From the NCBI RefSeq assembly GCF_003671765.1, contig NZ_QPIB01000002.1, positions 1,903 to 48,434 of the forward strand: 46,532 nt of DNA. Direction: 5' to 3'. The notes under the pieces are model-generated. The model was not told where the DNA came from and ran no database searches. It was given only the letters and a program-made list of their open reading frames with translations. Below, piece by piece: positions 338 to 23,711 of this stretch. The position numbers and the translations under genes were made by a program. This DNA comes from Xenophilus sp. E41 (lineage in GTDB: Bacteria; Pseudomonadota; Gammaproteobacteria; Burkholderiales; Burkholderiaceae_C). Position 1 is the stretch's first letter. Every line of letters starts with the position of its first letter.

Positions 338-2035
338 GTCGGCAGTCAGGATCAGCGTGCCAGCGCCCGACTGGGTCAGCGCGCCGGTGCCGGAGACGAC
401 GCCGCCCAGCGTCAGCGTAGTGCCGGCAGTCGGTGCCAGGGCCCCACCTGCAGCGCCCAGCAGCACAGCGCGCGTGGTCGTAATGGCAGCCGTCGTCTGC
501 AGCGTGCCGCCGTCGAGCGTCAGGCCGCCGGCCACGGCGCCCAGCGCGCCGTCGCTGGAGATCGACAGCGTGCCGCCGGACACGGTCCACGGCGTGGTCA
601 AGGCGTTGGTGCCCGTGAGCGTCCAGGTGCTGGAGTTGACCTTGCTGAAGCCAGTGAAGCCCTGGTACTGCGCGCCGATGCCCGAAACATCGAAGGTGCC
701 GGTGGCAGCGCCCCCCAGCCGCAGGGCGTTGTTGGCGCCGGTCGCAACGACGTCGCCGCTGAAGCCGTAGCCTGCGTTGAGTTCGAGGGCATTGTTGTTG
801 CCCGTGATGGTCACGGCATTGGCCTGCCCGCCCAGCCCGTTGCCACCCGCGATGCTGCCTGCGTTGACCAGCGTGTTGCCGTCGCCGGTCAGGCGGACAC
901 CCACGCCGCCGACGCCGGCCACGCCATTGGCCTCGCTGTTGACGCTGGCCCCGCCTGCGCCACCCGCACCGCCAGCGATCGTGCCGGCGTTGTAGATCGT
1001 CTGGTTGCTCACCGTGGCGGCCACGCCGTCGCCGCCGCCGCCGCCGTTGCCGGGCCGGCCGTTGGCGGTGCTGCCGTTGGCGTTGACGCCGCCGGCGCCG
1101 CCGGCACCGCCGACGATGGAAGCGCCCAACTCGTTGCGCAGCCCGCCGTTCAGGAGCACGACGCCGTTGCCGCCGCCACCGCCGCCGCCGCCGCTGGGGC
1201 CGTTGGGCGAGGCCGCACCCGCGGTACCGGCACTGCCTCCTGCCCCGCCGGCGCCGCCGGCGATGCTTCCCGTGTTGATCACCGTGCCGGTGGTGTTGGC
1301 ATAGACGCCCGAACCGCCGCCGCCGCCGCCGCCGCCCTGCGAATAGGCATTGCCGCCGGCCCCGCCGGCGCCACCGGTCACGCTGCCACTGTTGGTGAAG
1401 TCAGTGGCCAGGCCGTCGAGGACGACTCCGTAGGCACCAGCGCCGCCACCGCCCGCCGCCCACACGGCATTGGCACCCTTGCCGCCGTTGCCGCCGGCGA
1501 TCGTGCCGGCGTTGGCGGGAATGCCCGAAGCACCGAAGTAACCCGCACCGCCGCCGCCGCCATAGCTTTGGGTGGCATCGCTGTCGATCGCGAAATCGGG
1601 CGCCGCGCCGCCATCGAGCGAACCGGCAGTGCCGGCCGCCCCGCCGGCCCCGTTGTTGCCGGCCGCGTAGTTCCCGCGATCGCCGCTGGCGCCTGCCGAC
1701 GCACCGGTCGGGGTGGCGCTGCCGCCCGTGCCTCCGATGCCGCCGGAGGGCACGTCGTTGATGGCGCCCCCTCCGCCCTGGTTGTCGTTGCCGCCAGTGC
1801 CGCCGTTGAGCTGGGTGGCGGTGGCCGGGTCACCGCCGAGCCCACCCTGGCCGGCCATGCCGGGCGCAGCCGCGAGTCCGAGCGCCGCCGCGACGAGGAG
1901 CGGACCCGCCATGCGCAACAGCGGGCGATCGGCCGCCGCCGTGCTGGCGCTTCGCGTGCGCCCGCGCGCGGTTTCGCTGACAGCCTGCCAGCTGTTGAGG
2001 GACTGGTTGAAGACGACGCGGTGGATACGGTTCAT
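1..2035 (-). CDS. Glycine-rich type V autotransporter, N-terminal part (runs off left edge)
   Basis: The reading frame from ATG at 2035 stays open to the window edge, so at least 678 codons are visible and the C-terminal beta-barrel lies outside. The first residues, MNRIHRVVFNQSLNSWQAVS, match the extended signal peptide region (ESPR) of large type V proteins, followed by a basic stretch and a hydrophobic core (LLVAAALGLAAAPGMA) around residues 45-61. The next roughly 350 residues are a low-complexity passenger of GGAGGAGG, GGGGGG and N/T/S-rich turns, interleaved with 'VxNxGSIxGG' units. Toward the left edge come autotransporter-associated beta-strand repeats (GTLTLxGxNxYSGTTTISAGTLQVG). Predicted role: surface-exposed adhesin or biofilm protein exported by Sec and its own barrel. 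The substrate is unknown. Family assignment is firm; function is inference. Confidence 0.85.
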   Translation of the reverse strand, partial: MNRIHRVVFNQSLNSWQAVSETARGRTRSASTAAADRPLLRMAGPLLVAAALGLAAAPGMAGQGGLGGDPATATQLNGGTGGNDNQGGGGAINDVPSGGIGGTGGSATPTGASAGASGDRGNYAAGNNGAGGAAGTAGSLDGGAAPDFAIDSDATQSYGGGGGAGYFGASGIPANAGTIAGGNGGKGANAVWAAGGGGAGAYGVVLDGLATDFTNSGSVTGGAGGAGGNAYSQGGGGGGGGSGVYANTTGTVINTGSIAGGAGGAGGSAGTAGAASPNGPSGGGGGGGGNGVVLLNGGLRNELGASIVGGAGGAGGVNANGSTANGRPGNGGGGGDGVAATVSNQTIYNAGTIAGGAGGAGGASVNSEANGVAGVGGVGVRLTGDGNTLVNAGSIAGGNGLGGQANAVTITGNNNALELNAGYGFSGDVVATGANNALRLGGAATGTFDVSGIGAQYQGFTGFSKVNSSTWTLTGTNALTTPWTVSGGTLSISSDGALGAVAGGLTLDGGTLQTTAAITTTRAVLLGAAGGALAPTAGTTLTLGGVVSGTGALTQSGAGTLILTADNTYSGTTTISAGTLQVGDGGASGTLGTGAVTNNAALAFNRSDNLVVANAIGGTGTLTQAGAGTTVLTGTNNYSGTTTISAGTLQVGNGGASGTLGTGAVTNKAALAFNRSDN

Positions 2036-7436: not shown

Positions 7437-7705
7437 GGGGTTGTCTCGTGGGTATGAAGCGGCCTGTGCCTCCTCCGCCTCCAGGCCGCCACCCCGCAAC
7501 GCACGTGGCGTGCCACTTGCGCGCCAATGCGTAACCCACTGATTTGGAAAGGACATCGACTTGCAGGTGGCGCGTCCTTGCTGAGTTCTCGTGCCTGCGC
7601 CACAAGGATTGGGGCCAGAAATTCGCATTTGCAAAGCAAGCCTCGCTTGGCCAGCCCATCCGCACAGAAGCGAACCTTTCCTGCGCACCGGCGCACTCAC
7701 AGCAC

Positions 7706-8062
7706 ATGTCGCGTGCTTCGGATCTTTCGCATATTGCAGGCGGGCTGAGCGAGTCCATCGTGGCGGGGCAACCGTTGTCGCCCCGGGTCTTCGACGGATT
7801 TGCCGTGTCCAGCCACGACGGCCAGCAGCTCTGCGTCGCCAGCGCAGAAGCGCGCCAGGACGCCCTGCACCTTGCGCGGACCTGCCTAAAGCGCCAGTGC
7901 GCCGAGCTAGAACGGTATGCGATGTTCCAGATCGGCCTGAATGCTTCCTCGCGCGTGTGCGCGCTGTGGCGGCCATCGCCATCGCAACGAGCCGATCGCC
8001 TGGCCATGGAAGCGCACCTCGGCCTGATGATGGAACTTCTGAGCGGCGGAAGGTCGCGATGA
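7706..8062 (+). CDS. Small unknown protein upstream of sctV
   Basis: A 118-residue soluble protein (MSRASDLSHIAGGLSESIVA..., ending LGLMMELLSGGRSR) that I do not recognise. The frame is open further upstream, but ATG 7706 is the first start giving a protein-like N-terminus. Its stop overlaps the sctV start (ATGA), so it is almost certainly the first gene of the sctV-D-N-O operon. In Hrp1 clusters this place is held by hrpJ (SctW gatekeeper, about 350 residues); no such domain is visible. A chaperone or small regulator would fit by size and position, without direct evidence. The 7437-7705 spacer between this gene and the divergent sigma gene must hold both promoters. Confidence 0.6.
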   Translation: MSRASDLSHIAGGLSESIVAGQPLSPRVFDGFAVSSHDGQQLCVASAEARQDALHLARTCLKRQCAELERYAMFQIGLNASSRVCALWRPSPSQRADRLAMEAHLGLMMELLSGGRSR

Positions 8063-10068
8063 GCGCAGCGCCCGCCGATACCTCGATGCTCCAGCATCTG
8101 TGGAGCAAGGGCAGTCGCGCCGAAGTGGCGACCGCCGGTATCGTGATGGCCATCGTGATCGCAATGATCCTGCCGCTGCCGGTGTGGCTGCTGGACACCC
8201 TGCTGGCGATCAACATCAGCGCCTCCGCGCTGCTGATCGTACTGGTGATCCAGGTCAAGGACATCATCGGGCTGAGCACCTTTCCAACGCTGGTGCTGAT
8301 TACCACGCTGATGCGCCTGGCGCTGGAGGTCGCGAGCACACGGCTCATTCTTCTCGAAGGCTATGCCGGCCACATCATCGAAGCCTTTGCCCAGGTCGTC
8401 GTCGGCGGCAACATCGTGGTGGGCTTTGTCGTTTTTCTCATCCTGACCCTCGTGCAGTTCATCGTCATCACCAAGGGGTCGGAGCGCGTCGCCGAAGTCG
8501 GCGCGCGCTTCACCCTTGACGCGATGCCAGGCAAGCAGATGGCCATCGACATGGAGCTTCGCGCGAACACGATCACGCCGGAGCAGGCGCGCGAGCAGCG
8601 CGCCATGCTTGCACAGGAGAGCCAATTTTTCGGCGCGATGGACGGCGCAATGAAATTCGTCAAGGGCGACGCGATCGCCGGCATCGTGATCATGCTGGTC
8701 AACCTCATCGGCGGTCTCGGAGTGGGCATCCTTCAACGGGGCATGTCGGCGTCCGAAGCGATGCACACGTACTCCATGCTGACCATCGGAGACGGCCTGG
8801 TCACACAGGTGCCGGCCTTGCTGACTTCGCTCACGGCAGGGCTGCTGGTCACCAAGACAGGCGGTGTGGGCGAGAACGCGTCGAATCTGGGGCACAAGCT
8901 GGCCGACCAGCTGGCGGCGCAACCCAAAGCCTGGGTCACAGCCAGTGCGCTCATTGGCACCCTCGGGCTGATTCCCGGCATGCCGCTCATCGTTTTTGCC
9001 GCGGTGGCCGCATTTGCGCTGGGTTTTGGGCTGCACCTCATCCAGGGCAAGCGAACCGCCGCACGCGCAGAGTTGTCTGCGCGTCGCGGTTTGCTGCAAG
9101 ACGTGCGCGAGTTCGAACTGGTGTCGCCGCTCAGCCTTCGGATCTCTGCGCGGCTGCGCGATCACTCCGACAAACTTCGCCTGATCAACGCCACACGCAG
9201 CGTGCGAAACGCCATCGTGGTCAGCTATGGAATGATGCTGCCGCAGCTGGATATCGAGCCGATGGCAAGCGATACATCGTTCGATGTCGCACTTTGCCAG
9301 AACGACGTTGCACTCGTGCAGCTTCGCGTTCCTCAAGAAGCGTCCATGCCGCCCGAATGGTGGGCCAGCTACGAATTGCAGATGCGCGAGGCACTGCTGC
9401 GGGCGGCGCCCCGGACCTTCGGCGTGCAAGAGGCGCAGCACCTTTTTGACTGGATTGCCAAATTGCACCCTCAGCTGCACAAGGAACTCGAGCGCGTGGT
9501 TCCGGTGGGCCGGTTCGCCGAGATCGTGCAAAGGCTGATCTCCGAACAGATCAGCGTGCGCAACCTCAAACTCATCGCACAAGCACTGGTCGAAGCGGGG
9601 CCGCGCGAGCGCGATCCCGCGCTTCTCGCCGAGCAGGTGCGCCAGGCCTTGAGCCGGGAGATCTGCGCCGCTTACGCCGAGCATGGCGTCTTGTCGGCCT
9701 TCATGCTGGAGACGGAACTGGAAGACGCCATTCGCGATGCCATCCGCCCCACGTCGCACGGACAACTGCTCACATTCGACAGCGATCGCGCCGAGCCGAT
9801 TCTGAACCAGATGGAGGCGCTTCTTCGCAACGCTCGGCTGCCCGCCCCCGTGCTGCTGTGCAGCGAGGACATCAGGCCGTTCGTACGGCGGATTTTTTCC
9901 GCCCGGTTCTTCCTCGTGCCGGTGCTCGCCCTCGGCGAAGCGACGGCGCACTGCAGATTCGAGATCAAGGGCGTTCTCGAACTTCACCCACAGCGCCGGG
10001 CGCAAGTGTTGACCGCGGAAGAGCCGGCCATGCACGCGACCACTGCCGCCTCGACAAGCCATGGCTGA
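8059..10068 (+). CDS. sctV: T3SS export gate protein SctV (HrcV/YscV)
   Basis: A 669-residue member of the FlhA/SctV family. The N-terminal half carries about eight transmembrane helices with the conserved FHIPEP-type cytoplasmic loop (GSERVAEVGARFTLDAMPGK, residues about 152-171). The C-terminal half is the soluble domain that forms the nonameric ring docking chaperone-effector complexes. Length is close to that of other SctV proteins and no key block is missing. ATG 8059 overlaps the preceding stop; sctD begins 8 nt before the end of this gene. This is one of the fully intact parts of an otherwise incomplete T3SS. Confidence 0.95.
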   Translation: MSAAPADTSMLQHLWSKGSRAEVATAGIVMAIVIAMILPLPVWLLDTLLAINISASALLIVLVIQVKDIIGLSTFPTLVLITTLMRLALEVASTRLILLEGYAGHIIEAFAQVVVGGNIVVGFVVFLILTLVQFIVITKGSERVAEVGARFTLDAMPGKQMAIDMELRANTITPEQAREQRAMLAQESQFFGAMDGAMKFVKGDAIAGIVIMLVNLIGGLGVGILQRGMSASEAMHTYSMLTIGDGLVTQVPALLTSLTAGLLVTKTGGVGENASNLGHKLADQLAAQPKAWVTASALIGTLGLIPGMPLIVFAAVAAFALGFGLHLIQGKRTAARAELSARRGLLQDVREFELVSPLSLRISARLRDHSDKLRLINATRSVRNAIVVSYGMMLPQLDIEPMASDTSFDVALCQNDVALVQLRVPQEASMPPEWWASYELQMREALLRAAPRTFGVQEAQHLFDWIAKLHPQLHKELERVVPVGRFAEIVQRLISEQISVRNLKLIAQALVEAGPRERDPALLAEQVRQALSREICAAYAEHGVLSAFMLETELEDAIRDAIRPTSHGQLLTFDSDRAEPILNQMEALLRNARLPAPVLLCSEDIRPFVRRIFSARFFLVPVLALGEATAHCRFEIKGVLELHPQRRAQVLTAEEPAMHATTAASTSHG

Positions 10069-11092
10069 GCCCGCCGACGAACCACTGGAACTGCGCGTGC
10101 TGACCGGCCTGCACCGCGGGGCGGCACTGTTTCTTGTCGACGACGAATTCTTTCTCGGCAGTGATCCCGCCTGCGCCGTGGTGCTGCTTGACGCCGGCAT
10201 CGCAGAGCGGCACCTGCGCATCAGCCGCCACGGGGAGGCCTGGGTCGTCGAGCCGTGCAACGGCGCGAGCACCTTCTGCCCGGGCGTGGCAACAGCGGGC
10301 GGCGCTCTGCCGATCGACAGCACGAGACGCGTGCGGGTGGGCGACGTCTGGATTGGCTTTGCACGGCTCGAGGACCCCTGGCCCGATGCCGCCGAGCTGG
10401 CGCTGCTGCAGCAGAGCGCAGAGCAGGTCAACACCGTTGCCGGCAATCCCGCCAGCGGGGATCACGCGCCACGGCAGTCCCGGCGCAGGCGCATCAACAA
10501 ATGGATCGCCGTGCTGGGGACAGCGGCCGTCCTTTTCTTTGCAACGTGGCTGCTGGGGCGTGGCAAGCATTTTTCCACCGCGCCGACCTCCCCGGGGCAG
10601 GCTGCAGGGGCTGCCCCTGCCGCACCGGCTCCCAATGCGTTTGCTTCGCACAGCGAAACTGCCACGCACTCCAATATGACCACCGCGGCGCCTCCCGGGG
10701 CGCAAGCCGGGCCGGAGCAGATGCGGGTCGCCGTGGCCGGCGTGCTTGGGCAATACGGACTGGACCACGCCGTGAAAATCGACGCAGAGCCTGGACGATT
10801 GAATTTGCATGCCGTCCTATCGCCTCGTGACGTGCCGCGCTTTGAAAAGAGCCTGCTGCTCATCCAGCGGCGTTTCGGAGAAAACACGCGCATCGATGCC
10901 ACAGTAGCTCCAGTGGAGTCCGCGCTCCCCTTCCGAGTGCGGCAAATCCTGCTGGGTGGCGATTCCCGCATCATCCTGTCCGACGGGCGATCCATGTATG
11001 AGGGCGACCAATTGGACGGCGTGAAACTGGTATCGATCCGTGCGGGAACATTGGTATTCACCGGGCGAAGCAAAATCGAGGTGCCGTGGTAG
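10061..11092 (+). CDS. sctD: T3SS inner-membrane ring protein SctD (HrpQ/YscD-like)
   Basis: A 343-residue single-pass protein. Residues about 10-105 form an FHA-like cytoplasmic domain (ELRVLTGLHRGAALFLVDDE, LGSDPACAVVLLDAGIAERH), residues about 148-165 a transmembrane helix after a basic stretch (RQSRRRRINKW), and the rest a periplasmic part with a BON-like module (LGQYGLDHAVKIDAEPGRLN). This is the layout of SctD, which with SctJ builds the basal-body rings; the partner SctJ is not in the window. The gene sits between sctV and sctN exactly as hrpQ does in Hrp1-type clusters, with overlaps at both ends. Confidence 0.88.
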   Translation: MAEPADEPLELRVLTGLHRGAALFLVDDEFFLGSDPACAVVLLDAGIAERHLRISRHGEAWVVEPCNGASTFCPGVATAGGALPIDSTRRVRVGDVWIGFARLEDPWPDAAELALLQQSAEQVNTVAGNPASGDHAPRQSRRRRINKWIAVLGTAAVLFFATWLLGRGKHFSTAPTSPGQAAGAAPAAPAPNAFASHSETATHSNMTTAAPPGAQAGPEQMRVAVAGVLGQYGLDHAVKIDAEPGRLNLHAVLSPRDVPRFEKSLLLIQRRFGENTRIDATVAPVESALPFRVRQILLGGDSRIILSDGRSMYEGDQLDGVKLVSIRAGTLVFTGRSKIEVPW

Positions 11093-12477
11093 GCCGATCC
11101 GCAATTGCAACGGAATTGGGGCGCCCCGCAGAGCTGGAGGTCGCCGCGCAGCGGGTGCAGTCGCTTGCGCTCGACCGGATCGGCCGCCTGACGCCTGTGG
11201 CTGTCATTGGCAAGGTGCGCAAGGTGCTGGGCACCCTGATCGAGGGGACTGTACCCAACGCCAGCGTCGGCGAGCAGTGCGAGATCTTCCATCCCGCGCG
11301 GCCACAGGAAGGCATCCGTTGCGAAGTCGTTGGGTTCACGGAAGAGTCCGTGCTCTTGTCGCCCCTGGTGGCGATCGAAGGTATCTCAAGCGTCTACCTG
11401 ATCCGCCCCCTGCGCTGCGCACACTCCGTCGTCGTCGGCCCCGCGCTCCTGGGCCGCATCCTCGACGGCTTTGGACAGCCCTTGGATGGGCGCCCACCGC
11501 TGCAGCCGGATGGCAAGTCCGCAAGTGCGCACCTGGTGATGGTGGAGGCGCCGGCGCCCACAGCCCGTCCTCGCATTGTGCAGCCCTTCCCGACGGGCGT
11601 CCGCGCGGTAGATACCCTGCTGAGCCTCGGCGTGGGGCAACGTATCGGGATACTGGCAGCGCCTGGATGCGGCAAGACCACCTTGCTGGCAGCCATGGCG
11701 CGGGGCAGCGAGGTCGATGCCATCGTGCTCGCACTCATCGGCGAGCGTGGGCGAGAGGTTCGGGAGTTCACCGAACACGAGTTTGAAGCGACCTTGCTGA
11801 AAAAGACGGTCATTGTGTGCGCGACGTCGGACCGCACCTCCATCGAGCGCGTGCGCGCGGCATTCACGGCCATGGCAGTGGCCGAGGGCCTGCGTGACCA
11901 GGGCCTGCGCGTGCTGCTCATGGTGGATTCGCTCACGCGGCTGGCGCGCGCGCAGCGGGAAATCGGCTTGGCCGCAGGCGAACCCCCAGCGCGCGCGGGC
12001 TACCCGCCTTCGGTCTATTCGTTGCTGCCCAGGCTGATCGAACGTGCTGGAAACTTCGAGACGGGGTCCATCACGGCTGCATTCACCATTCTCTCCGATG
12101 GCGAAGTCCGCAGCGACCCCATCAGCGAAGAAGCCATCTCGCTGCTGGACGGGCACATTCTGCTGTCGCGCAAGCTCGCCGAGCAGGGGCATTACCCGGC
12201 CATCGACATACTGGCCAGCATCAGCCGTGTGATGTCCAACATCGTCGGGCGCAAGCACATCAACGCCGCCATGCACGTGCGCGAGATACTGGCGAAGTAC
12301 CGGGAAATCGAGCTGCTCCTGCGGCTGGGCGAATACAAAAAGGGATTGGACCTGGCCATGGATCGGGTCATCGAGCGCCACCCGCACGTCGTGCAGCTCG
12401 TACGCCAAGACACCCGCCAGCCGATTCCCTCGCGCGACGGAATACAACAGTTGCTGGCGATTGCGGAGGCTGCGTGA
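11086..12477 (+). CDS. sctN: T3SS ATPase SctN (HrcN/YscN)
   Basis: The 463-residue ATPase removes chaperones and unfolds substrates at the cytoplasmic face of the injectisome. The Walker A loop AAPGCGKTTL spans about residues 191-200 (Lys197), LIGERGREVREF follows, and the Walker B strand is LLMVDSLTR. The segment SIGxTAAFTILSDG-like and the C-terminal helical domain are present. Length is normal. The start is GTG 11086, overlapping the sctD stop; there is no better start. sctO overlaps its stop. The stator SctL, normally encoded close by, is missing. Confidence 0.95.
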   Translation: MVGRSAIATELGRPAELEVAAQRVQSLALDRIGRLTPVAVIGKVRKVLGTLIEGTVPNASVGEQCEIFHPARPQEGIRCEVVGFTEESVLLSPLVAIEGISSVYLIRPLRCAHSVVVGPALLGRILDGFGQPLDGRPPLQPDGKSASAHLVMVEAPAPTARPRIVQPFPTGVRAVDTLLSLGVGQRIGILAAPGCGKTTLLAAMARGSEVDAIVLALIGERGREVREFTEHEFEATLLKKTVIVCATSDRTSIERVRAAFTAMAVAEGLRDQGLRVLLMVDSLTRLARAQREIGLAAGEPPARAGYPPSVYSLLPRLIERAGNFETGSITAAFTILSDGEVRSDPISEEAISLLDGHILLSRKLAEQGHYPAIDILASISRVMSNIVGRKHINAAMHVREILAKYREIELLLRLGEYKKGLDLAMDRVIERHPHVVQLVRQDTRQPIPSRDGIQQLLAIAEAA

Positions 12478-17978: not shown

Positions 17979-19442
17979 ATGGCCAAGATCCCCGCCGGCG
18001 TCGGGCCGCGCTTTCCGCAGGTGGTGGTGCTCGTGGGCGCCACCGGCGACCTGTCGCGGCGCAAGCTGCTGCCGGGCCTGTTCCACCTGTGCAGCGCAGG
18101 CTTCATTCCCGACTGGCGCATCGTCGGCGTCTCGCTCGACGACATCGACGTCGACGGTTTCAAAGCCATCGCCCGCAGCGCCCTGGACGAGTTCGGCAGC
18201 CGCAAGACCAGCCCCGCCGCCTGGGAGCGCTTTGCTGCCCAGCTCGACTACGTGCCGCTGGCCGCCGGGGCGCCGGCGCTGAAAGACGCGGTGGCGCGCG
18301 CCGAGGCCTCGCTGGGTGTCGAGTGCCGGCGGCTGCACTACCTCAGCGTGCCGCCCTCGGCCGCGCTGCCCGTGGTGCGCATGCTGGGCGATGCGGAACT
18401 GGTCGAGCGCTCGCGCATCGTGATGGAAAAGCCCTTCGGCACCGACCTGGCCAGCGCGCGCGTGCTCAACGCCAGGCTGCACGAGGTCTTCGACGAATCG
18501 CAGATCTTCCGCATCGACCATTTCCTGGGCAAGGAGCCGGCGCAGAACATCCTGGCCTTCCGCTTCGCCAACGGCCTGTTCGAACCGATCTGGAACCGCA
18601 ACTTCATCGACCACGTGCAGATCGACGTGCCCGAGACGCTGGGCCTGGGCAAGCGATCGGGCTTCTACGAGCAGACCGGCGCGTACCGCGACATGGTGGT
18701 CACGCACCTGTTCCAGATCCTCGGCTTCATGGCGATGGAGCCGCCCACCTCGCTCGACCCCGAGCACATCGGCGAGGAGAAGAACAAGGTCTTCCGCAGC
18801 ATGCTCCCCATCCTGCCCGGCGACGTGGTGCGCGGCCAGTACAGCGGCTACCGCGGCGAGGAAGGCGTCGACCCCGACTCCGACACCGAGACCTTCATCG
18901 CGCTGAAGTGCCACATCGACAACTGGCGCTGGGCCGGCGTGCCCTTCTACCTGCGCACCGGCAAGCGCATGGCCGAGAGGCAGCGCATCATCTCCATCGC
19001 TTTTCGCGAGCCGCCCAAGAGCATGTTCCCGCCCGGCAGCGGCGTGGGTGCGCAGGGGCCGGACCACCTCACCTTCGACCTGGCGGACGCGTCGAAGATG
19101 AGCCTGTCGTTCTACGGCAAGCGCCCCGGCCCCGGCATGCGGCTGGACAAGCTGAGCCTGCAGTTCGCGATGACCGACACCGGCCTGGCCGGCGAGGTGC
19201 TGGAGGCCTACGAGCGCCTGATCCTCGACGCCATGCGCGGCGACCGCACCCTGTTCACCACGGCCGAGGGCATCGAGCGCCTGTGGGAGGTGTCGCAGCC
19301 GCTGCTGGACGCACCGCCGCCCGTGCGCCTGTACGAGCCCGGCTCGTGGGGACCCAAGCCCGTACACCAGCTGATCGCGCCGCATGCCTGGCGGCTGCCC
19401 TTCGAGCGGGCGTGGCGCAATCCGAACAAGAGCGGCAGCTGA
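17979..19442 (+). CDS. zwf: Glucose-6-phosphate 1-dehydrogenase
   Basis: A 487-residue enzyme oxidising glucose-6-phosphate to 6-phosphogluconolactone with NAD(P)+, the entry of the Entner-Doudoroff and pentose phosphate routes. The N-terminal Rossmann motif is VLVGATGDLSRRKLLPGLF; the active-site signature RIDHFLGKEPAQNI contains the catalytic histidine and substrate lysine, preceded by VMEKPFG. Length is normal. The ATG at 17979 follows a GGAG-type site. No pgl, edd or hexR gene is adjacent, so it appears to be a single-gene unit. Confidence 0.95.
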   Translation: MAKIPAGVGPRFPQVVVLVGATGDLSRRKLLPGLFHLCSAGFIPDWRIVGVSLDDIDVDGFKAIARSALDEFGSRKTSPAAWERFAAQLDYVPLAAGAPALKDAVARAEASLGVECRRLHYLSVPPSAALPVVRMLGDAELVERSRIVMEKPFGTDLASARVLNARLHEVFDESQIFRIDHFLGKEPAQNILAFRFANGLFEPIWNRNFIDHVQIDVPETLGLGKRSGFYEQTGAYRDMVVTHLFQILGFMAMEPPTSLDPEHIGEEKNKVFRSMLPILPGDVVRGQYSGYRGEEGVDPDSDTETFIALKCHIDNWRWAGVPFYLRTGKRMAERQRIISIAFREPPKSMFPPGSGVGAQGPDHLTFDLADASKMSLSFYGKRPGPGMRLDKLSLQFAMTDTGLAGEVLEAYERLILDAMRGDRTLFTTAEGIERLWEVSQPLLDAPPPVRLYEPGSWGPKPVHQLIAPHAWRLPFERAWRNPNKSGS

Positions 19443-20277: not shown

Positions 20278-20958
20278 TCAGCGCCCCACCCAGCCGCCGC
20301 ACACCGGAAACACCTGCCCGACGAAGCAATCCGCCGCCGCGCTGCACAGGTAGGCCGCGAACTGCGCGTCCTCGCGCGCGGCGACCAGCCGGCCCAGCGG
20401 CACCTCACGCCGCAGCCGCTCCTGGAAACGCGGGTTGGCCTGCACCTCGGCCGGGAAGTAGGTCGGGTTGTCGACGAAGTTCTGCGCGATCGCATTGACC
20501 TGCACGCCCTGCGGCGCGAACTCGACGCCCACCGCCTGCGCATAGGCCAGCTGGGCGCCGCGCGCCGCGCTGTAGGTCGACGCGCGCTTCATGCCGCGCA
20601 GCGCCGAGGCGCTGCCCAGGATCAGGATCTTGCCCGCGCCGCGGGCCAGCATCGCCGGCGCCGCCGCGCGCACCAGGCGCGGGAGCGGGTCGACCAGCGC
20701 CGCGAAGGCGCTTCGCCACTCGTCCTCGTCCACCTCCTGCGCCAGCGTGGTCGGGGCCGCGAACGCGAGGTTGGCGACCAGCACGTCGATGGGGCCGGCC
20801 TCGCGCACGACGCGCTCGGCGGCATCGGGTGCCGAGAGCGCCTCGGCGCTGGCGACCACCGTCGCGCCCTGTTCCTCGAACACCTCGCACAGCACCGGGC
20901 CCATGAATTCGGTGGACTGGGTGATGAGCACGCGTCGGCCGGTGAGCAAATCCTTCAT
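20278..20958 (-). CDS. Halohydrin (haloalcohol) dehalogenase-like SDR protein
   Basis: A 226-residue Rossmann-fold protein of the short-chain dehydrogenase superfamily in which the cofactor and catalytic motifs are changed in the way that defines halohydrin dehalogenases. The glycine-rich NAD(P) loop TGxxxGxG is replaced by T13-QSTE-F18-M-G20, i.e. T-x4-F-x-G. The catalytic triad is Ser116-x12-Tyr129-x3-Arg133 (Ser-Tyr-Arg instead of Ser-Tyr-Lys). The C-terminal part NFVDNPTYFPAEVQANPRF resembles the halide-site region of HheC as I recall it. Such enzymes convert vicinal haloalcohols to epoxides with release of halide, without a nucleotide cofactor. A TGGAG site precedes the ATG. Activity is predicted from motifs only; physiological substrate unknown. 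Confidence 0.8.
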   Translation of the reverse strand: MKDLLTGRRVLITQSTEFMGPVLCEVFEEQGATVVASAEALSAPDAAERVVREAGPIDVLVANLAFAAPTTLAQEVDEDEWRSAFAALVDPLPRLVRAAAPAMLARGAGKILILGSASALRGMKRASTYSAARGAQLAYAQAVGVEFAPQGVQVNAIAQNFVDNPTYFPAEVQANPRFQERLRREVPLGRLVAAREDAQFAAYLCSAAADCFVGQVFPVCGGWVGR

Positions 20959-21005: not shown

Positions 21006-21563
21006 TCAGGCCACGCGGCGTGCGTGCTCGACGAAGGCCTCGCGCGTCTGAACCATGTACAGGGCCGGGCCGTCCGGCGTGTCGATGGTCCGGAGCGCCG
21101 CGAAGCCGGCCTTTTCGTAGCAACGGATCGCGCGCAGGTTGTCCGGCGCGGGGTCGGTCTGGATCCTGGTCACCGCCGGGTCTTCGAACAGCCTGGCGAC
21201 CAGCGCGCGGACCAGCAGCGTGCCCAGGCCTTGACCCAATCGCGATGCGTCCGCGAGCGACTGGTCGATGCCGCGCACGCCGGGGTCGGTCTCGTCCTCC
21301 CACCAGCCACCTCCGCTGCCCACGGCGACGTACGACTGCGCATAGCCGATCGGCTCGTCGCCCAGCATCGCGATGTAAGGCGTGACGCCCTCCGCCGCCA
21401 TGACGCTCGGCCGGTATTGCGCCTGCACGTCGTCCCACGACGGGCGCGCCGCCTCGCCGCCCCACCACTGCACGATGTGCGGGCGGTTCAGCCAGTCGTG
21501 GAGCATGGGCAGGTCCTGCTCGGTCATGGGGCGCAGGGTGACGCGACGCGGTACCGGGGTCAT
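21006..21563 (-). CDS. AAC(6')-Ib-like aminoglycoside 6'-N-acetyltransferase
   Basis: A 185-residue GNAT-fold protein strikingly like AAC(6')-Ib: VTLRPMTEQDLPML, WLNRPHIVQWWGGE, VTPYIAMLGDEPIGYAQSYV, GWWEDETDPGVRGIDQSLAD, GLGTLLVRALVARLF, IQTDPAPDNLRAIRCYEKAG and TPDGPALYMVQTREAF all align with that enzyme as I remember it. Predicted reaction: acetyl-CoA-dependent 6'-N-acetylation of aminoglycosides. The Trp and Asp positions changed in the fluoroquinolone-active '-cr' variant are unmodified here. The Gln-Ser in GIDQSLAD corresponds to the form reported to favour gentamicin over amikacin (Gln-Leu). GGAG precedes the ATG. No integron attC, integrase or IS flanks the gene, so it looks chromosomal and native. 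Confidence 0.88.
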   Translation of the reverse strand: MTPVPRRVTLRPMTEQDLPMLHDWLNRPHIVQWWGGEAARPSWDDVQAQYRPSVMAAEGVTPYIAMLGDEPIGYAQSYVAVGSGGGWWEDETDPGVRGIDQSLADASRLGQGLGTLLVRALVARLFEDPAVTRIQTDPAPDNLRAIRCYEKAGFAALRTIDTPDGPALYMVQTREAFVEHARRVA

Positions 21564-21588: not shown

Positions 21589-22029
21589 TCAGTCTTCGTC
21601 CTCGAACCAGAGGCAGGCGGTACGCTGCGGCACGAGAACGAGGATGCCGGTGTCGAAGGTGGCGTCGGTGGCCGGCGACAAGGAGGCGCCGCCCGCAACC
21701 GACGGGTTCGGCAGGCCCGGCGCGCCGTTGGTGAAATAGCGTGCGCCGAGCCCGCCGGCCGCCTGCACGAAGGCGATGGCCAGCCGTTGCGCCCTGGCTG
21801 GAGGCACCAGCTCCACGCCATAGGCCAGGTCGCCATGGATCACACGCTGGAGTACGGAGACGGCCTGCGCCGCATCGATCTCTGCGTAGATGCCCGGCTC
21901 ACTCGCCAGGCCGAACGACCGTGCCGCAGCTTCCGGCGAATCGAAGCCCTGCGGCAAGGCGCCGCCGCGCACATGCCCGGCCCTGCGCAGGGCACGGACC
22001 TCGGCCACGATGTCGTCCGCATCCGCCAT
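21589..22029 (-). CDS. Protein of unknown function
   Basis: A 146-residue soluble protein (MADADDIVAEVRALRRAGHV...) that I do not recognise. It has a short helical N-terminus (residues 1-35) followed by an alpha/beta stretch with DFDTGILVLV-like strands and ends WFEDED. The start at 22029 lies 5 bp after the stop of the OsmC gene, so the two form an operon; the acetyltransferase gene follows 25 bp later and may belong to the same transcript. Confidence 0.6.
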   Translation of the reverse strand: MADADDIVAEVRALRRAGHVRGGALPQGFDSPEAAARSFGLASEPGIYAEIDAAQAVSVLQRVIHGDLAYGVELVPPARAQRLAIAFVQAAGGLGARYFTNGAPGLPNPSVAGGASLSPATDATFDTGILVLVPQRTACLWFEDED

Positions 22030-22034
22030 GCGGG

Positions 22035-22463
22035 TCAGCCGGTCACCGAACTCTGGGCGCCTTGCGCCTGCACCCACCGCACCGGCACGCCGGCCCGCAG
22101 CGTGTTGTGCACCTCGGCCACGGCATCGGTTTCCGCGAGGAGCCGCTCGATCGCCTCGGGCGGGGCACTCGACTGCACCCGTGCCGTGTAGCGAATGTCG
22201 CTGGCGGCCAGACCGACGCCGGGGAACTCGGCACTCGCTTCCACCTCGACCGCATCGAGCACGAGGCCCAGCCGCGCCGCCTCGCGGAACAGGTCGTTGC
22301 AGTAGCAGGTGGCCAGCGCCAGCATCAGGAACTCACCGCCGTTGACGGTCGAGCCCCGGCCCGCGGGCTTGGGCGGCACGTTCAGCGACTGGCGCACCTC
22401 GCCGGTCTCGACGGTGGTGGCGTGCGATGACGCGGTGTTGCGGACGGTGGCTCGGATGCGCAT
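22035..22463 (-). CDS. OsmC-family protein
   Basis: A 142-residue OsmC/Ohr-like protein. The family core is recognisable as GGEFLMLALATCYCNDLFRE, with the cysteine of ATCYCND in the helix that carries the first catalytic Cys of Ohr/OsmC, then VEVEASAEFPGVGLAASDIR. Classical OsmC has a second cysteine that I do not see in the expected later position, so peroxidase activity is uncertain. Complete, with ATG 22463; first gene of a short run that includes the 146-residue unknown. Confidence 0.75.
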   Translation of the reverse strand: MRIRATVRNTASSHATTVETGEVRQSLNVPPKPAGRGSTVNGGEFLMLALATCYCNDLFREAARLGLVLDAVEVEASAEFPGVGLAASDIRYTARVQSSAPPEAIERLLAETDAVAEVHNTLRAGVPVRWVQAQGAQSSVTG

Positions 22464-22566: not shown

Positions 22567-23616
22567 TCAGTCCTTCGCGACTTCCAGCACCAGCTTGCCG
22601 AAGTTCTCGCCCGAGAACAGCTTGCCCAGCGCCTCGGGGAAGTTCTCGATGCCCTGCACGATGTCCTCGCGGCTCTTCATGCGGCCGTCCTTGAGGTAGC
22701 CGGCCATTTCGGCGATGGCGACGTGGTAGCGGTCGGCGTAGTCGAAGACGACCATGCCTTCCATGCGCGCGCGGTTCACGAGCAGGCTCAGGTAGTTCTT
22801 GGGGCCCGCGGCGGGCATGCTGTTGGCGTTGTTGTACTGGCTGATGGCGCCGCAGATGACGATGCGGGCCTTGCGTGCGAGCTTGGCCATCACGGTGTCG
22901 AGGATCTCGCCGCCGACGTTGTCGAAGTACACGTCGACGCCCTTGGGCGCATGTTCCTTCAGGCCCTCGCGCACGGCGCCCGGGCCGGCCTTGTAGTCGA
23001 TGCAGGCGTCGAAGCCCAGTTCCTTGACGACCCACTCGCACTTGGCGGCGCCGCCGGCGATGCCGATGGCGCGGCAACCCTTGATCTTCGCGAGCTGGCC
23101 CACGGTCTGGCCGACGGCACCGGCCGCGCCGGAGACGACCACCGTGTCGCCCGCCTTGGCCAGGCCGACCTCGAGCAAACCGAAGTAGCCGGTCATGCCC
23201 GGCATGCCGAGCACGTTGAGCCACTGGCTGGCGGTGCCGGCCTTCAGGTCGATCTTGGTGAGGCCACTGCGCTTGACTTCGTCGGCCGACACCAGCGCGT
23301 ATTCCTGCACGCCCAGCGTGCCGTACACCACGTCGCCGACGGCGAAGGCCGGGTTCTTCGACGCGACCACGCGGCCCACGCCACCGGCACGCATCACCTC
23401 GCCGATCTGGACCGGCGGGATGTAGCTCCTGCCCTCGTTCATCCAGCCACGCATCGCGGGGTCGAGCGAGAGCATCAGGGTCTTGACCAGCACGCCGCCG
23501 TCGGCCGGCTGGGCGACGGGCGCCTCGCCGTAGCTGAAGTTCTCGCGCGTGGCGGCGCCCGTGGGCCGGCTGGCGAGCTTGAACTGGTGGTTGGTGGCGG
23601 CGATGGCAGTGCTCAT
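22567..23616 (-). CDS. NADP-dependent zinc-independent oxidoreductase (CurA/LTB4-dehydrogenase type)
   Basis: A 349-residue medium-chain reductase of the leukotriene B4 12-hydroxydehydrogenase group, which reduces enone double bonds with NADPH. The N-terminal domain contains LMLSLDPAMRGWMNEGRSYI; the Rossmann motif is VVVSGAAGAVGQTVGQLAKI; YKAGPGAVREGLKEHAPKGV and DVYFDNVGGEILDTVMAKL follow. No zinc ligands are present, as expected for this group. The ATG at 23616 is favoured over longer starts because it begins directly with the conserved N-terminus. Faces the CMD-like gene across a 281-bp divergent spacer containing an intergenic repeat. Confidence 0.9.
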   Translation of the reverse strand: MSTAIAATNHQFKLASRPTGAATRENFSYGEAPVAQPADGGVLVKTLMLSLDPAMRGWMNEGRSYIPPVQIGEVMRAGGVGRVVASKNPAFAVGDVVYGTLGVQEYALVSADEVKRSGLTKIDLKAGTASQWLNVLGMPGMTGYFGLLEVGLAKAGDTVVVSGAAGAVGQTVGQLAKIKGCRAIGIAGGAAKCEWVVKELGFDACIDYKAGPGAVREGLKEHAPKGVDVYFDNVGGEILDTVMAKLARKARIVICGAISQYNNANSMPAAGPKNYLSLLVNRARMEGMVVFDYADRYHVAIAEMAGYLKDGRMKSREDIVQGIENFPEALGKLFSGENFGKLVLEVAKD

Positions 23617-23711
23617 GGCGGATGTCTCCTGCGTGGATGTTGGACAGCGGGCGGCCATCCTAGCCGTGGGCGCGGGCGGCCGCAGGCGCGCAGGCGACAT
23701 GGCAGCCTCAA

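Follow-up and report, generated by a model that had tools for sequence, protein, structure and literature searches.

Few antibiotic-resistance genes are as common in hospitals as that of the AAC(6')-Ib (aacA4) cassette, whose source appears to be still open as far as the available parts of the literature go. The sections available of a survey of resistance gene origins name proposed origins for two aminoglycoside genes, AAC(6')-Ih and APH(3')-VI (which the table prints as -IV), with Ib not among them (PMC7782503). An attC-based survey predicted a source for 29 of 108 cassettes, aacA4 not being among them in the available part (PMC8352920), and a wide screen of aminoglycoside-modifying enzymes does not place Ib in the portion available (PMC10400643). 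A preliminary description of the locus studied here had stated that AAC(6')-Ib cassettes lack a firmly known chromosomal source. In the available parts of the openly licensed PMC literature, including PMC12444791, no report of a Rhizobacter/Piscinibacter source for Ib was found. Openly licensed PMC papers also yielded nothing on a Piscinibacter gummiphilus integron or on a Xenophilus aminoglycoside acetyltransferase. Residues Y80, D117, L120, Y166, E167 and F171 affect the activity or specificity of AAC(6')-Ib, and a serine at position 119 is tied to the AAC(6')-II type phenotype, according to the available part of PMC3656343.

The window, the whole 46,532-nucleotide stretch of Xenophilus sp. 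E41 DNA that was analyzed, contains a putative aac(6') gene of the AacA4 family at 21006..21563, where the preliminary description had correctly placed it. Read from the minus strand, it encodes 185 amino acids plus stop (ATG at 21563, stop at 21006). Its protein scores 329.2 bits against the AacA4 equivalog model TIGR04431, above the cut-off of 260, and 305.1 bits against the AAC(6')-Ib model NF033074, under the cut-off of 400; the Ib allele of locus L161 reaches 433.4 bits against the latter. Pfam models of the GNAT superfamily are matched as well (PF13523 with 113 bits, also PF13302 and PF00583). A phmmer search against PDB sequences returns AAC(6')-Ib (1v0c, E 2.7e-86), and a global alignment to an Ib allele gives 135 identical positions out of 184 (73.4%), both of which bear out the earlier identification as an AAC(6')-Ib homologue. 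Identities to other cassette-encoded enzymes are similar, with 137/184 for AAC(6')-31, 134/181 for IIa and 126/184 for IIc. As judged from these sequence comparisons, the gene is a further member of the already known AacA4 family. An identical protein is encoded by X. aerolatus E41 (L008), which places the genome in Xenophilus.

Residues Y80, D117, Q118, L120, Y166, E167 and F171 of Ib are all kept in the aligned window protein, and the two '-cr' positions (W104 and D181 as numbered in PMC3656343) have the wild-type residues, as had been noted. The Gln-Ser pair reported at the specificity site is present as Q101-S102, encoded on the minus strand at 21258..21263 and corresponding to Q118/L119 of AAC(6')-Ib by translation and alignment, and the window protein thereby carries the serine at 119 that marks AAC(6')-II specificity. 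The pair is, however, not special. Among 42 chromosomal rows, window and P. gummiphilus cassette included, position 119 is serine in 21, phenylalanine in 21 and leucine in none. Within Ib, Leu119 is found in the alleles Ib3 and cr5 and Ser119 in the alleles of genomes G141, G243 and G267; locus L070 has X at this position. Gln-Ser is a common state and no sign of special descent, because serine is one of two common chromosomal states.

The window protein would be an AacA4-family aminoglycoside 6'-N-acetyltransferase with a GNAT fold, which most likely acetylates aminoglycosides at their 6'-amino group with acetyl-CoA as the donor. A gentamicin-type (AAC(6')-II-like) profile would be expected, as Ser119 gives in Ib. 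The gene could also encode a housekeeping GNAT enzyme whose physiological substrate is a different one and for which any aminoglycoside acetylation is incidental, given that it sits among metabolic genes on the chromosome, that Phe119 is found in the deeper members of the family and that a consensus scan revealed no sigma-70-like promoter nearby. A score over the AacA4 equivalog cut-off, 73-75% identity to four named resistance cassettes (Ib, IIa, 31 and A8) and the retention of active-site and specificity residues make such a role possible but unlikely.

The gene is located in a variable slot of the Xenophilus chromosome. One edge of the slot is formed by the downstream neighbor, an SDR-family oxidoreductase gene (20278..20958, minus strand; PF13561/PF00106) found at 85% identity or more in 6 of 15 genomes of the genus. 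The other edge is a zinc-binding dehydrogenase gene (ADH; 22567..23622, minus strand; assigned by Pfam and genus comparison) that is present in all 15. Between the aac gene and the ADH lie the upstream neighbor, an ORF without Pfam match and with an uncertain start codon (21589..22077, minus strand), and, overlapping it, a gene for an OsmC-like protein (22035..22463, minus strand; PF02566). A glucose-6-phosphate dehydrogenase gene (17979..19442, plus strand) represents a chromosomal anchor on the SDR side, and an S10 ribosomal-protein operon was recognized by eye at about 41-46 kb of the window. The 10 neighboring ORFs scanned against Pfam belong to metabolic or transport families or have no match.

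Comparison across the genus places the gene in the ADH-SDR slot of four of the 15 genomes. These are the window's own genome (G000), G006, which is scored as the same species and has the gene order of the window, G007, with the order ADH-OsmC-AAC-SDR and without the ORF at 21589..22077, and G010, in which OsmC and AAC are split across two contigs and followed by a small ORF and then the SDR. In G001 the slot holds a decayed aac remnant (residues 85-133, 76%) and the SDR is lost, while in G005 a different GNAT ORF was recognized by eye. Two further genomes encode a homologue elsewhere (G002, 63%; G014, 49%). The window gene has a GC content of 0.711 and a GC3 of 0.909, compared with GC3 values of 0.837-0.949 for six neighbors. 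Divergence from its congeners is mainly synonymous, with pN 0.064, pS 0.286 and dN/dS 0.186 against G007 and pN 0.053, pS 0.181 and dN/dS 0.263 against G010. The gene looks native to the Xenophilus chromosome and long resident there because of its host-like GC3, a dN/dS of 0.19-0.26 and a common slot in four genomes plus one remnant. This is consistent with the preliminary description, which had seen a native gene in an environmental betaproteobacterium, in that host-like GC3, purifying selection and a stable slot are all observed. We picture it as an old resident of the variable place between ADH and SDR, a native AacA4 family member that is ordinary-looking yet informative.

No homologues of IntI1, Sul1 or QacEdelta1 are found in the window at E 1e-6, and a home-made scan, which can miss sites, found no attC near the window gene or its sister copies. 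Unlike AAC(6')-Ib, the gene is not an integron cassette, as neither an integrase nor an attC was found at it. Two attC-like inverted repeats are seen at window positions 1124-1208 and 11253-11335 (R-box pairing 7/7, L-box 5-6/7); they lie far from the gene and are probably due to chance. The earlier statement that integron context is lacking holds for the window but not for two sister species, which have integrase remnants beside the ADH. In G009, a degraded integron integrase (L126 5806-6773), whose pieces reach 72% identity to IntI1, lies beside the ADH, next to a sequence that by eye resembles attI. The SDR contig of the same genome, unjoined to the ADH contig in the assembly, opens with an attC (L125 44-103) and cassette-like ORFs. 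This attC shares 53/60 positions with the IIa attC and is of a common type, the IIa attC itself sharing 52/60 with that of aadA1. In G002, an N-terminal integrase remnant (L130 7758-7952) and an attI-like sequence are found beside the ADH. These remnants appear to represent a decaying chromosomal integron in Xenophilus, and the variable ADH-SDR slot has been home to a chromosomal integron in sister species.

The window gene might accordingly be read as a former cassette, left in a slot that was once a chromosomal integron whose integrase and attC sites have decayed. The integrase and attI-like sequences by the ADH in G009 and G002 and the attC with cassette-like ORFs on the G009 SDR contig would fit such a history. 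On the other hand, neither integrase nor attC was found at the gene in the window, G007 or G010, gene composition is host-like and unlike that of plasmid cassettes (GC3 0.57-0.65), and integrase traces are limited to 2 of the 15 ADH loci searched in the genus, with the G009 contigs unjoined. We therefore regard a cassette past as doubtful and favor a native resident.

Elsewhere in the window's own genome, the end of a contig encodes a protein 100% identical to IntI1 over residues 52-337 (G000:C5:103284-104141, L183), and a 7.3 kb contig (G000:C21, L184) carries a further IntI1 fragment together with FloR, TetR and Tet(G), all over their NCBI cut-offs. Integrase matches are also present at G006:C47 and G006:C23. 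This class 1 integron region, which lies outside the window, appears from its content to be acquired.

Homologues of the window protein are patchily distributed. They are found in 6 of 15 genomes of the genus and in at least 30 of 399 genomes of the family, of which at least four are class 1 or IIa cassettes. In the order sample at least 4 of 399 genomes have a homologue, two of them from family f1, and in the phylum sample at least 21 of 398 match, with all 19 matches outside f1 being at most 43% identical. On plasmids, 3669 of 72,556 records contain a homologue at E 1e-20. Among 28 AAC loci (L134-L161), IntI1 homologues at E 1e-5 are present in three (L135, L160, L161) and an attC adjoins the gene in five (L135, L160, L161, L159, L137); the integrase of L137 lies beyond the stretch examined, and the attC of L159 was missed by the first scan and found with another pattern. 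In locus L135 (G238, 7557-10150), an AAC(6')-IIa-like gene follows an integrase whose identity to IntI1 is only 55%, and an attC is located at 9517-9576; the protein of the gene has the same core as in L014 and L017, and the locus represents a IIa cassette in another integron class.

The slot is stable within the Xenophilus subclade, but synteny does not extend widely between genera. In a comparison of 43 loci, in which a few places are represented by two entries, with the first 40 clusters listed and ORFs overlapping the aac gene itself left out of the count, no neighbor family was common to more than four loci. Partial sharing of neighbors was observed between Polaromonas BC and C12 and G212, between G188 and G530, and between G090 and G194 and G211. 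Old horizontal transfer of the family is likely because of this patchy distribution and the lack of a widely common neighbor between genera. The preliminary description had named patchy distribution with flanking mobile DNA in relatives as a sign of recent import; the patchiness is real (6/15 and at least 30/399, with no widely common neighbor), while no mobile DNA is found at the gene.

Trees of the family were inferred. The first contained 109 rows (5 of 19 distant homologues and 54 of 202 listed proteins, identical rows removed) and the second 75 of these, long, distant and near-duplicate rows being dropped, with an unsettled bootstrap. In the 109-row tree, the cassettes are nested among chromosomal rows from Burkholderiales together with unnamed metagenomic proteins, and the named deep branches within the family are Burkholderiales. 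Other names do occur in the cassette clade, namely L030 (a Synechococcales MAG), P0183 (Leptothoe) and P0193 (Granulosicoccus), and P0301 (Nakamurella) and P0259 (an Anaerolineae MAG) are 66-69% identical to a deep G224 gene. In the 75-row tree, the Xenophilus group (100/100) falls outside a clade that includes all 13 cassette rows (83/94). Ib and P. gummiphilus form a clade with values of 98/89 in this tree, subject to its unsettled bootstrap, and of 88 in the 109-row tree.

Approximately unbiased (AU) tests were run on the 75 rows with groups named after the first tree had been seen. A clade of the seven Xenophilus rows with Ib is not rejected at 0.05 (p 0.089), and neither is a clade of Ib, 31 and A8 without P. 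gummiphilus (p 0.256). One clade of the 13 cassette rows, set against the five chromosomal rows within that clade, is rejected (p 0.021). Stricter values (p 0.0028 for Xenophilus with Ib and p 1.1e-8 for all cassettes as one clade) were set aside as overstated because P0007, a Xenophilus-group row, in the first and P0051 and P0062 in the second stood on the wrong side. With the fairer grouping, the tests thus make more than one mobilization of cassettes from the pool probable. The close family would be mainly a Burkholderiales chromosomal gene pool that gave rise to cassettes, probably on more than one occasion. The P. gummiphilus gene falls within the Ib/31/A8 group or beside it, and the tree alone leaves the order near Ib unfixed.

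Relative to Ib, the window gene stands as a cousin and is an unlikely parent, mainly because closer homologues exist. As a direct progenitor of AAC(6')-Ib it would have in its favor membership in the same family at 73% identity and a clade with Ib that survives the fairer AU test at p 0.089. Closer Ib homologues, the position of the Xenophilus group outside the cassette clade in both trees, the lack of an attC at the window gene and a sequence difference of 27%, which excludes recent descent, render direct parentage extremely improbable. The suggestion in the preliminary description that the gene is a possible relative of the progenitor holds for the wider lineage but probably not for the window gene itself; the P. 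gummiphilus gene is closer, being 84.6% identical to Ib as opposed to 73.4%. Likewise, the phylogenetic check proposed there places the Xenophilus group outside the cassette clade, though a grouping with Ib is not firmly rejected.

The best Ib match with a named chromosome is P0153 of P. gummiphilus, a protein identical to that of genome G354. It shares 154 of 182 residues (84.6%) with Ib, compared with 148 of 184 for 31, and its best NCBIfam match is the Ib model at 364 bits, under the cut-off of 400. At the DNA level, identity to Ib is 82.4% over 649 bp including the attC, while Ib is 85% identical to 31 and A8. Unnamed metagenomic proteins come closer to Ib (P0034 87%, P0040 88%, P0148-P0152 90-91%), and none of the 11 genomes of the P. 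gummiphilus genus that were searched yielded an allele closer to Ib than the P. gummiphilus gene. The gene is flanked by attC sites at 9244-9312 and 9874-9945 (L137) within an array of 22 sites in 19.5 kb, as detected by a home-made scan, with an overlap of stop codon and attC such as Ib also shows. An integron integrase free of stops, 69% identical to IntI1 and scoring 525 bits against a cut-off of 435, precedes the first attC listed by about 1.1 kb and lies on the same contig as the aac gene, about 55 kb from it. Flanked by attC sites and lying in an array with an integrase, the gene is organized as a cassette of a sedentary chromosomal integron.

The distribution of the attC type of Ib points to the same lineage. 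Using home-made patterns, a 19-base Ib-type attC core was counted in a family sample of 399 genomes and found in 40, with 207 copies in G224, 124 in G354 and 0-6 in the other 397; the reversed core gave no matches. Four of the 40 (G141, G238, G243 and G267) also matched AAC searches as carriers of Ib or IIa. G224, a metagenome-assembled Rhizobacter sp. (P0204), and G354 belong to one genus, g119, of which the two other genomes in the family sample have 1 and 0 cores; the pattern was run on these 4 of 11 g119 genomes. In the phylum sample, the core is present in 1 of 329 genomes, namely G141, where Ib is part of a class 1 integron. A looser pattern yields 142 attC sites in 99.5 kb of G354 (L202-L206) and 245 in 159 kb of G224 (L207-L214). 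The cassette ORFs of these arrays are mostly without identification, some being GNAT-like by eye.

One attC of G224 (L210 11409-11480) is identical to the Ib attC of G141 at 72/72 positions and to the Ib3 attC of L069 at 71/72, and by eye its cassette carries a GNAT gene of a different family. The same attC matches 3309 plasmid records, with an identity of at least 99% in 2872; the plasmid matches listed are 100% identical in 8 of 8 rows and located at AAC(6')-Ib4, five being of human source. The attC of the P. gummiphilus aac gene shares 66/74 positions with that of Ib and matches 3315 plasmid records, with 38 of 40 among the matches listed lying at AAC(6') features. Its first 65 nucleotides occur three times in the stretch of its own array and seven times in the G224 stretch, as opposed to zero times in 27 further loci, of which 26 come from other genomes. 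GC contents are 0.571-0.572 for the arrays, 0.57 for the P. gummiphilus gene and 0.55 for Ib. The IIa and IIc cassettes have attC types other than that of Ib.

Integron cassettes move, and the P. gummiphilus cassette might itself be an import from mobile integrons that is uninformative on origin. Ib alleles are in fact found in three other family genomes, two of which (G141 and G267) have a class 1 integrase in the stretch; in the third (G243), the allele is on a short contig with the Ib attC. An import is quite improbable in view of the 85% identity to Ib, which is not that of a clinical allele, the repetition of the first 65 attC nucleotides in the gene's own array and in G224 as opposed to 0 of 27 further loci, and a gene GC of 0.57 equal to the array GC of 0.571.

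We favor instead an origin in which the Rhizobacter/Piscinibacter lineage most likely supplied the AAC(6')-Ib cassette, gene and attC together, from a sedentary chromosomal integron. This source is proposed mainly because of the attC evidence, with which gene similarity and base composition agree. The direction of transfer and the branch order next to Ib are inferred here, and the exact donor was not found among the genomes searched. In its full form, with such an integron drawing on a Burkholderiales chromosomal aac(6') pool, the Xenophilus gene being a branch without sign of mobilization and IIa and IIc, with their other attC types, having left the pool separately, this history seems rather likely. 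We assign a probability of roughly three in four to the overall reading, according to which the window gene encodes a putative 6'-acetyltransferase, is a Xenophilus resident and a cousin rather than the parent of Ib, and stems from a Burkholderiales pool, with Rhizobacter/Piscinibacter as the source of the Ib cassette. The history of the family opens the origin of AAC(6')-Ib to testing, with the window gene serving as a non-mobile outgroup and the Rhizobacter/Piscinibacter integrons representing a concrete place to seek the donor.

Compared with known systems, the window protein resembles that of the AAC(6')-Ib cassette in its 73% identity, equal length, active-site residues and '-cr' positions. 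It differs in that its gene is not a cassette, has no detected attC and is high in GC, and in its score of 305 bits against the 400 of the Ib model. AAC(6')-IIa, AAC(6')-31 and AacA8 are 74-75% identical to it and share Ser119, but are mobile cassettes, an attC having been observed in 31, in A8 and in the L014 copy of IIa. The gene of Acidovorax kalamii (G335, L134) is likewise chromosomal, 75.5% identical and of the Ser119 type, but falls inside the Ib/A8/31 clade and has a lower GC3 of 0.674. The P. gummiphilus cassette (P0153, G354) also belongs to the AacA4 family, has Ser119 and is 69% identical to the window protein; in contrast to the Xenophilus gene, it resides in a large chromosomal integron and groups with Ib.
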